From: Salibaculum griseiflavum
GTDB taxonomy: Bacteria > Pseudomonadota > Alphaproteobacteria > Rhodobacterales > Rhodobacteraceae
Length of the DNA: 64,000 nt
Reading direction: 5' to 3'
NCBI RefSeq assembly: GCF_003129565.1
Contig: NZ_QETF01000002.1
Span: forward strand, 124,001 to 188,000
Shown here: piece by piece, positions 1 through 4,147 of the stretch
Layout of the letters: each line of letters starts with the position of its first letter
Position numbering within the stretch: the stretch's first letter is position 1
Notes under the pieces: generated by a model
What the model was told of the DNA's origin: nothing
The model's database searches: none
The model's input: only the letters and a program-made list of their open reading frames with translations
Translations under genes and position numbers: made by a program

Positions 1-1824
<1,824 letters not shown>

Positions 1825-2285: not shown

Positions 2286-2314
2286 TTGCATTTTCAAAAA
2301 GCAACCCTTATGGA
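2286..2314 (+). promoter_or_regulatory. Candidate sigma-70 promoter for the SatD-like gene
   Basis: TTGCAT (2286-2291) and TATGGA (2309-2314) are separated by exactly 17 bases, in a locally AT-rich gap that contrasts with its surroundings. The predicted start site would fall inside the palindrome at 2315-2333, the usual place for a repressor to act. Confidence 0.5.
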
Positions 2315-2333
2315 TTGCATATTGATTATGCAA
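2315..2333. promoter_or_regulatory. Palindromic operator candidate upstream of the SatD-like gene
   Basis: TTGCATA (2315-2321), spacer TTGAT, then TATGCAA (2327-2333) form a perfect 7+7 inverted repeat. It directly abuts the predicted -10 box and lies 14 bases before the chosen ATG. The downstream gene encodes a C-terminal helix-turn-helix, so autoregulation is a natural hypothesis; this is inference. Confidence 0.5.
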
Positions 2334-2347
2334 GGGCGAGACCCCCT

Positions 2348-2992
2348 ATGAATGCCACCGTCTTCACCGGTGACCTGATCGGATCGCGCGAGGCGACTAC
2401 CGAGGTGATCGAGGACAGCCTTGCCGCCCTGTCGGATGCCGCATCCCGCGCCGCGCGGCTGCTCGACACCGACCTGCGGTTTACCCGCCACCGGGGCGAT
2501 GGCTGGCAAATCCTACTGACGCAACCGCGCCAAACGCTGTTCCTCTGCTTGGCCCTGCTGGCCGGGTTGCGGGCCGCAGATACAGGTCTGGACACACGTA
2601 TCGGCATCGGCATCGACCGGATCGAGAGTCCCGGCACAAGCGACTTGTCGGATGCCGCCGGGCCGGCCTTCGTCATGGCCGGTGACATGCTGCACGCCTT
2701 GGGCGCGCCACGCCGGAAGGAACTGGTGCTGCTGGGTGGCGGCGGGGCCCAACCCTGGCACAATGCCGTCGTGGCCCTTGTCGATTGGATTGCCCGTGGC
2801 TGGACGCCGGAGCAGGCCGAAGCCCTGTCGCTGGTCCTGCTGGAGACCGGGCAGGACACCAATGCCAAACGTGCCGAACGGCTGGGCATCTCGCGGCAGG
2901 CGTTCGAATCCCGCCTCAAGGGGACTGGCCATGACGCGCTGGCTGTCGCAAGATCGGCCTTCGAGGCCCATGATTTCGAAGGCACGCCATGA
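2348..2992 (+). CDS. SatD-family protein with C-terminal helix-turn-helix
   Basis: A 214-residue protein resembling the SatD family (named for secretion and acid tolerance in streptococci; molecular function not established). It begins with FTGDLIGSR, carries RHRGDGWQ at about 47-54, and ends with a helix-turn-helix-like stretch, residues 170-192 (TNAKRAERLGISRQAFESRL), suggesting DNA binding. An in-frame TTG at 2315 could extend it by 11 residues, but that would place the palindrome inside the gene, and GGGCGAG sits at a good distance before the ATG at 2348. It overlaps the DUF3307 gene by 4 bases (ATGA), so the two are probably translationally coupled. Confidence 0.75.
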   Translation: MNATVFTGDLIGSREATTEVIEDSLAALSDAASRAARLLDTDLRFTRHRGDGWQILLTQPRQTLFLCLALLAGLRAADTGLDTRIGIGIDRIESPGTSDLSDAAGPAFVMAGDMLHALGAPRRKELVLLGGGGAQPWHNAVVALVDWIARGWTPEQAEALSLVLLETGQDTNAKRAERLGISRQAFESRLKGTGHDALAVARSAFEAHDFEGTP

Positions 2993-3699
2993 TCGCCACC
3001 TTCACCGCCCTGCTGCTGGCCCATACGGCTGCCGATTTCCTGATGCAGACCGGCTGGATGGTCAGGCGCAAGGCGCATCCGGGGGTGCTCTTGCTGCATG
3101 GCGCGCTGGTGCTGGGCACGGCGCAGCTTGCCATCGGCACAGTGACCGCGCCCGCGCTGGTGGCGCTGGCTGCGGCCCATGTCGCCATCGATGCGATCAA
3201 GACCTATGGCGGGTTCCGGTCGTTGACGGCCTTTCTGCTGGACCAGGCCGCACACCTGGCGACCCTGGCGGCGGTCGCAGTCTATGCGCCCGAGCTTTGG
3301 GCCAACGGGGCCTGGGCGGGTCAGGACTGGCTGCTGCCGGTCATGGCGGTGACGGCGGGCGCGATCCTGGCGCTTGCCGGCGGGCAATACGCGGTCGGCA
3401 TCCTGATGCAGCCCCACAGCCCGCGCATCCGCAATACCGGGCTGCGCGACGGCGGGCGCCAGATCGGCCTGCTGGAACGCGGTTTGATCTTTGCCTTCAT
3501 CCTGACCAGCCATCCGATCGGCGTTGGCTTTCTGATCGCGGCCAAGTCGATCCTGCGTTTCGACACCGCCTCGCGCGACCAGCGCAGCGCGGAATATGTC
3601 ATCATCGGCACGCTAGCCTCTTTCGGCTGGGCCATCCTGGCGGCGCTGGCGACAAAGGGCCTGCTGGACAGCCTGCCGCCTTTCGCCCTGCCCCGGTAA
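2989..3699 (+). CDS. DUF3307 polytopic membrane protein (SatE-like partner)
   Basis: A 236-residue, very hydrophobic protein of the DUF3307 family, starting with LLLAHTAADFLMQTGWM, a typical opening for this family. About six membrane-spanning stretches can be read (residues roughly 1-20, 35-60, 75-100, 110-130, 165-185, 205-225). DUF3307 proteins commonly sit beside SatD genes, and here the start codon overlaps the SatD stop (ATGA). No enzyme motif is visible and the substrate or role is unknown; the pairing suggests a sensor or regulated transporter controlled by SatD. Confidence 0.8.
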   Translation: MIATFTALLLAHTAADFLMQTGWMVRRKAHPGVLLLHGALVLGTAQLAIGTVTAPALVALAAAHVAIDAIKTYGGFRSLTAFLLDQAAHLATLAAVAVYAPELWANGAWAGQDWLLPVMAVTAGAILALAGGQYAVGILMQPHSPRIRNTGLRDGGRQIGLLERGLIFAFILTSHPIGVGFLIAAKSILRFDTASRDQRSAEYVIIGTLASFGWAILAALATKGLLDSLPPFALPR

Positions 3700-3707
3700 G
3701 CCGCCCC

Positions 3708-3736
3708 TTGAGATCACCGCCTTGCCCAACTAGATT
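3708..3736 (+). promoter_or_regulatory. Candidate promoter for sufA
   Basis: TTGAGA (3708-3713) and TAGATT (3731-3736) are 17 bases apart, 30 bases before the sufA start codon. The position suggests that sufA is transcribed separately from the SatD/DUF3307 pair. No obvious iron-responsive palindrome is seen. Confidence 0.45.
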
Positions 3737-3766: not shown

Positions 3767-4147
3767 ATGTTCGGTATTCCCGGCAAACAGGCCGTCACCC
3801 TGACGCCCAAGGCAACGGAACAGATTGCCAAGCTGATGCAGCGCGACGGCAAGTCCGGCCTGCGCATCGGCGTCAAGAAGGGCGGCTGCGCGGGCATGGA
3901 ATATACCATGGATTACGCCGACGAGATCGACCCCAATGACGAGGTGGTCGAACAGGACGGCGCACGGGTGATGATCGCCCCCATGGCGCAGATGTTCCTC
4001 TTCGGCACGGAAATCGACTACGAGGTCAGCCTGCTGGAAGCCGGGTTCAAGTTCCGCAATCCCAATGTCGAGGATGCCTGCGGCTGCGGCGAATCCATCA
4101 AGTTCAAGGATGTCGAGGAACTGTCGGCGGAACAGGGCCGCGGCTGA
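3767..4147 (+). CDS. sufA: A-type Fe-S carrier protein SufA/IscA-like
   Basis: A 126-residue HesB/IscA-family protein. The three cysteines that hold the cluster are all present: Cys41 in KKGGCAGMEY and Cys105/Cys107 in DACGCGES. It accepts clusters from the SufBCD scaffold and passes them to apoproteins. GCAGGAGC lies just before the ATG. The next gene starts on the last base of the stop codon, so the two are coupled. It is the second Fe-S assembly gene within 2 kb of sufT. SufA, IscA and ErpA cannot be told apart by sequence alone; SufA is chosen because the other assembly genes here are of SUF type. Confidence 0.9.
   Translation: MFGIPGKQAVTLTPKATEQIAKLMQRDGKSGLRIGVKKGGCAGMEYTMDYADEIDPNDEVVEQDGARVMIAPMAQMFLFGTEIDYEVSLLEAGFKFRNPNVEDACGCGESIKFKDVEELSAEQGRG

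Follow-up and report, generated by a model that had tools for sequence, protein, structure and literature searches.

The satD-DUF3307 locus and its neighbours

The window analyzed here is a 64,000-nucleotide stretch of the Salibaculum griseiflavum genome (contig NZ_QETF01000002.1), in which a SatD-like gene and a DUF3307 membrane protein gene lie between a sufT-like and a sufA-like gene. The first-pass annotation of this DNA, made by reading the letters, had described this gene order, a helix-turn-helix (HTH) at the C-terminus of the SatD-like protein and a 4-bp overlap of the two genes, and each of these was recovered: the HTH is present, the overlap is the ATGA formed by the satD stop (2992) and the DUF3307 start (2989), and the flanking genes are located at 1909–2271 (TIGR02945) and 3767–4147. 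The features of the locus, with predicted promoter hexamers and putative operator units, are as follows.

1909–2271, + strand: sufT-like Fe-S assembly gene (DUF59, TIGR02945), a conserved upstream neighbour outside the circuit
2272–2289, + strand: operator unit 1, GCAAGCCTTTTTTATTGC, an 18-bp imperfect palindrome immediately after the sufT stop codon
2286–2291, + strand: -35 hexamer TTGCAT, equal to the right arm of unit 1, an arrangement conserved in relatives
2301–2318, + strand: operator unit 2, GCAACCCTTATGGATTGC, the last full unit, 29 bp after unit 1 and holding the -10 hexamer
2309–2314, + strand: -10 hexamer TATGGA, at offset 8 of unit 2
2315–2333, no strand assigned: 19-bp palindrome TTGCATA-N5-TATGCAA, composed of the right arm of unit 2 and the left arm of unit 3
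2330–2347, + strand: decayed unit 3, with the left arm GCAAG (2330–2334) in phase at 29 bp and the right arm gone
2348–2992, + strand: satD-like gene, 214 residues, with the start taken at the ATG at 2348
2804–2923, + strand: HTH, approximately residues 153–192, with the recognition helix at about 182–191 and the putative specificity residues R183 and S188
2989–3699, + strand: DUF3307 membrane protein gene, 236 residues, with the DUF3307 domain at residues 5–99 followed by a C-terminal domain
3708–3736, + strand: promoter-like TTGAGA-17-TAGATT ahead of sufA, distinct from the satD promoter
3767–4147, + strand: sufA-like Fe-S carrier gene, a conserved downstream neighbour outside the circuit

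Within the literature searched, the SatD family is merely named, as 'secretion and acid tolerance' (PMC10326533), and the search retrieved no paper on the mechanism, DNA binding or arrays of SatD. The window protein scored 22.3 bits against the Pfam SatD model (PF16264), below the cut-off of 29, and is therefore called SatD-like, i.e., related by profile. When the Rhodobacterales proteins were aligned with the PF16264 members that pass the cut-off (L220–L222), the match extended over 186 columns and both domains (hhalign probability 98%, E 2.6e−13). In the AlphaFold model (pLDDT 96.7) the N-terminal domain (approximately residues 1–120) has the class III nucleotidyl-cyclase fold (38 of 38 Foldseek matches at E ≤ 0.001, best E 1.5e−5), and the cyclase Ma1120 was also matched by the SatD profile; in that alignment the metal-site Asp coincide and Arg47 corresponds to a Lys of Ma1120. 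D9 and D51, the metal-site Asp residues, were invariant (in 63, 77 and 9 sequences). As for the transition-state residues, whose motif was aligned by eye only, position 109 (Asn in cyclases) was variable, with Asn not among the common residues, while position 113 (Arg in cyclases) was occupied by Arg in 31 of 77 sequences and by Asp in the window. The catalytic Asn seems to have been lost, and, since its position is variable and the Arg position holds an Asp in the window, a sensing rather than a catalytic role is favoured for the cyclase-like domain, and the protein is not classed as an active cyclase.

The partner protein matched DUF3307 (PF11750) at residues 5–99 with 55.6 bits (cut-off 23), and its AlphaFold model reached a pLDDT of 95.1. 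Residues H12, D16, H37, H64, D68, K71, D85 and H89, together with a Gln, are invariant in the helices of its N-terminal half, while its C-terminal domain, for which there was no Pfam match, accompanies SatD most constantly at other loci. Searches for solved relatives gave none by sequence and no significant Foldseek match, a second structure comparison (VIA) gave only middling scores (Z ≤ 7.2), which were taken as uninformative for a protein that is helical, and no match to DUF3307 was found in phage records. About half of the DUF3307-bearing genomes of the family (e.g., L213–L219) carry only a short DUF3307 protein (often 130–200 residues) and no SatD match, and a genome of the same genus (L212, G080:C43:1-5000) has a long DUF3307 gene before sufA and no satD match.

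The flanking by sufT and sufA is kept in most Rhodobacteraceae that carry the pair, and the pair is also found elsewhere without suf genes. In the examined genomes without the pair, sufT and sufA are mostly close together. A promoter-like element of sufA's own (TTGAN-(16-19)-TANNNT) was present in 42 of 114 loci (control 0). Gene position alone connects the pair with Fe-S assembly, as the first-pass annotation had stated. Further upstream in the window (412–1824), a 470-residue protein combines a RimB-like retropepsin domain with a fused RimK glutamate ligase.

A cyclase-family fold adjoining a membrane protein could also point to a nucleotide-signalling defence or toxin-antitoxin-like pair, in which SatD would make or sense a nucleotide that restrains the membrane protein, and on a Sphingomonas insulae plasmid (L224, NZ_CP048421.1, 1-6636) the pair is found beside Pycsar effector, adenylate/guanylate cyclase and TIR-domain genes. 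We nevertheless consider this explanation improbable: neither protein had a PADLOC match (E 0.1), the catalytic Asn is apparently missing, the same-genus genome mentioned above has kept the partner but shows no satD match, and in dozens of Rhodobacteraceae genera the pair sits at one constant chromosomal position, between sufT and sufA, unlike most defence genes.

A phased array of palindromes upstream of satD

Of 295 genomes from the family, 65 were found to contain SatD homologues; with 80 further named loci added, this resulted in 132 non-redundant loci. These were scanned for arrays in which any half-site is repeated at 28–30 bp, with no sequence preset and a score of at least 18. The conserved element upstream of satD consists of tandem 18-bp palindromes of the form H5-N8-H5', most commonly GCAAG-N8-CTTGC. 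At least two units were present in 113 of the 132 loci, compared with a null fraction of 0.0008 (0.08% of shuffles), where the null was obtained from single-base shuffles and an earlier dinucleotide-preserving run on 65 loci agreed with it. Over the arrayed loci the units are spaced mainly by 29 bp (n = 144) and otherwise by 28 bp (n = 28) or 30 bp (n = 26), and the arrays reach up to about 140 bp upstream. Two single-unit loci (L066 and L172) still have the GCAAG-N8-CTTGC form.

The array of the window, taken alone, is modest: it has two full units, and its score was reached by 1 of 400 dinucleotide shuffles, although an exact GCAA-N10-TTGC pair at 29 bp did not appear in any of 20,000 shuffles. 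It carries weight because of the arrays in relatives. The 19-bp palindrome TTGCATA-N5-TATGCAA had been proposed as the operator itself, lying at the transcription start site. The sequence is real, exact and unique as an exact match in the genome, where just two further matches, each with two mismatches, were found; however, it begins at 2315 and not at 2286, and it corresponds to the junction of two adjacent repeat units. Among shuffled versions of this short region, 1.2% contained a perfect 7-N5-7 palindrome of some kind. When its conservation before homologues was checked, all seven arm positions, examined at the corresponding distance from the last unit, were complementary in just 2 of the 113 arrayed loci, the window included, whereas the full arrays of relatives and the two single-unit loci define the unit as GCAAG-N8-CTTGC. 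We therefore regard the 19-bp palindrome as a very improbable operator; what had been observed at the locus was largely real, but the phase of the palindrome had been misread.

Exact two-unit arrays were detected in 11 of 16 GCAAG-type genomes and in 5 of 7 TCAAG-type genomes, each match being located beside satD (reversed-pattern control 0), and the satD locus was the sole exact match in the window's own genome. A wider regulon was considered and rejected, as no second exact array was found in this genome or in the 23 scanned genomes. In the sufT-sufA gaps without satD an array was present at 0 of 10 loci. In other Alphaproteobacteria and in Gammaproteobacteria, SatD genes are preceded by palindromes of other sequence (GACCC, GAACC, ATAGCC, TGTAAT and GCAAG types) in which a period of 28–29 bp is kept, and 10 of these 17 distant SatD loci exceeded all 100 dinucleotide shuffles. 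As every exact array in the scanned genomes is located at satD, the sufT-sufA gaps that lack satD have none, and arrays of other sequence precede distant SatD genes, the array belongs to satD and not to the Fe-S genes.

No array was detected in 19 of the 132 loci, many of which have a recognition helix other than [ST]RQ. In six homologues (L093, L094, L098, L075, L082 and L079) QQ or KQ replaces RQ in the helix and an array was likewise not detected; such proteins may use a different operator. The Sphingomonas insulae plasmid locus, whose setting resembles a defence island, also had no detectable operator array. Three loci from public MAGs that are labelled Gemmatimonadetes (L107, L118 and L125) contain the pair with GCAAG arrays and no suf neighbours, which may reflect horizontal transfer or a MAG binning error.

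Co-variation of the recognition helix and the half-site

The half-site differs by lineage (GCAAG, TCAAG, ACAAG, GAAAG, GCAAC/GCACC and GCAGG), and its changes are paired with changes in the SatD protein. When 100 combinations of an HTH column with a half-site position were compared, the association between residue 183 and base 1 was the strongest (MI 0.641 vs 0.042, z = 24.6). In 106 of 107 loci, Arg183 goes together with G as the outermost base, and Pro, Thr, Lys, Ala or Gln at this residue with T or A; in the sole exception, L155, the two kinds of unit occur once each. A tree built from the N-terminal domain alone contains seven disjoint pairs in which base 1 differs, and in six of them residue 183 differs too, as predicted. 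A second pairing, of K/R188 with C at half-site position 5, was recovered in 3 of 4 disjoint comparisons, and in the largest clade of this kind the spacing is also 30 bp. The loci that had not been used to derive the rule, three from the family (L230, L233 and L235) and three from Gammaproteobacteria (L246, L247 and L249), conform to it by combining [ST]RQ with GCAA-type arms. The paired changes of helix and operator can be viewed as a natural specificity-swap experiment, carried out in six or more lineages.

This co-variation points strongly, though indirectly, to SatD itself as the protein that reads the array, and autoregulation by SatD on a phased array appears well supported by the comparison of sequences. 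The first-pass annotation had read the gene pair as a module that regulates itself, by way of a DNA-binding domain and an operator-like site in the module's promoter; with the exception of the 19-bp palindrome in the role of operator, this proposal stands, and through the protein-DNA co-variation it is now supported far more strongly than it was originally. The same data bear on whether the repeats act as RNA hairpins (a sufT terminator or attenuator, or a leader element) instead of protein-binding DNA. Inverted repeats that start right after the sufT stop codon would suit such hairpins, and one terminator-like match lies over unit 2 on the minus strand, but neither the co-variation with an HTH residue nor the constant period of 28–30 bp is in line with them. 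Moreover, arrays are also found where sufT is absent, the ten sufT-sufA gaps without satD have none, and no Rfam match was found, so that we give RNA hairpins hardly any credence.

Promoter overlap, proposed control and comparison with known systems

TTGCAT (2286–2291) and TATGGA (2309–2314), separated by 17 bp, lead straight into the 19-bp palindrome, as had been noted from the sequence, and transcription would start near 2321. The description of this pair as a good promoter did not hold, as each hexamer has 3 of 6 consensus matches and the promoter scan did not list the pair. Despite this poor consensus match, the position of the promoter within the array is kept in relatives: TA[TA] is found at offset 8 in 43% of the last units compared to 4% of the other units, and the -35 coincides with the right arm (TTGC) of the unit preceding the last. 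In 76 of 107 loci, 0–4 nt separate the last unit from the first in-frame start codon (2 nt in 47), which suggests leaderless transcripts in many relatives. In the window, an in-frame ATT is located at 2321–2323, the codon position that the start ATG occupies in many relatives, 2 nt beyond the last unit; the start of the window satD may have shifted to the ATG at 2348, or a rare start codon may be used.

With the -35/-10 pair embedded in the array, SatD bound there would be expected to block transcription from the promoter, and the arrangement suggests direct competition between SatD and RNA polymerase. SatD thus likely represses rather than activates, a direction that is read only from the overlap of site and promoter. 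Some aspects of the arrays would suit a SatD that activates the operon or builds a nucleoprotein structure instead of blocking the promoter, as they reach up to about 140 bp upstream, beyond what occlusion needs, and the units other than the last have no -10. Nonetheless, in most relatives the last unit lies over the -10 and ends a few nucleotides from the start codon, a position typical of repressors, and we consider activation or nucleoprotein assembly unlikely.

Our preferred reading, which we hold with reasonable confidence, is that satD-DUF3307 is a self-controlled cassette in which SatD, co-transcribed with its membrane partner, acts as an autorepressor on a phased array, and its cyclase-like domain, possibly nucleotide-sensing, would set the dose of that partner. 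SatD would presumably be a dimer through its cyclase-like domain, with each dimer binding one 18-bp palindrome via the C-terminal HTH, and two to four dimers would be placed side by side, every 28–30 bp of the array. With the -35 formed by the right arm of the next-to-last unit and the -10 placed in the final unit, an occupied array would exclude RNA polymerase, and SatD would thereby repress its own operon. The cyclase-like domain, in which the metal site is kept, probably reads a nucleotide or metal-nucleotide that loosens or tightens binding, and the modulated binding would set the dose of the membrane partner. A function of SatD-DUF3307 in membrane signalling may be supposed: the partner is a predicted membrane protein, and the cyclase fold of SatD would fit signalling.

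More tentatively, SatD could represent a broad, undescribed class of nucleotide-sensing repressors, in which a non-catalytic class III cyclase domain serves as sensor and dimeriser, dimers line up on 28–30-bp arrays, the amount of a membrane protein is thereby tuned to a cytoplasmic nucleotide or metal signal, and the operator drifts together with residues 183 and 188; we see this wider generalization as possible rather than probable. If true, the operator drift paired with residues 183 and 188 would be a readable recognition code. SatD, known by name only, and DUF3307, of unknown function, become a testable circuit with a binder, a site, residues and a promoter, and a ligand-sensing function of the cyclase-like domain, if confirmed, would be a new use of a much-studied signalling fold.

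Compared with known systems, the SatD-like protein shares with the SatD family (PF16264) a full-length profile-profile match and the gene order with a membrane partner, and differs in that the window protein remains under the Pfam cut-off. With respect to DUF3307 (PF11750), it is the C-terminal domain, rather than the Pfam-defined one, that accompanies SatD at almost every other locus examined. The fold and the two metal-site Asp residues are common to class III adenylyl/guanylyl cyclases (Rv1900c, Ma1120), but in SatD the Asn was not seen where the motif would place it, its Arg partner is unconserved, and an HTH is added. In Panoptes (mCpol-2TMbeta), a nucleotide-enzyme-family protein is paired with a membrane protein (PMC12657230). 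The two-gene layout of both Panoptes and Pycsar, with a nucleotide-enzyme-family protein and a membrane protein, resembles that of SatD-DUF3307; in contrast to them, neither protein of the cassette matches a PADLOC family, and SatD bears an HTH and comes with an operator array. In repressors with tandem phased operators, dimer-sized palindromes are repeated over the promoter, as in the satD array. In this general comparison, satD differs in that its array architecture is preserved across two classes with an operator sequence that follows the recognition helix, and in that the putative sensor is cyclase-like.
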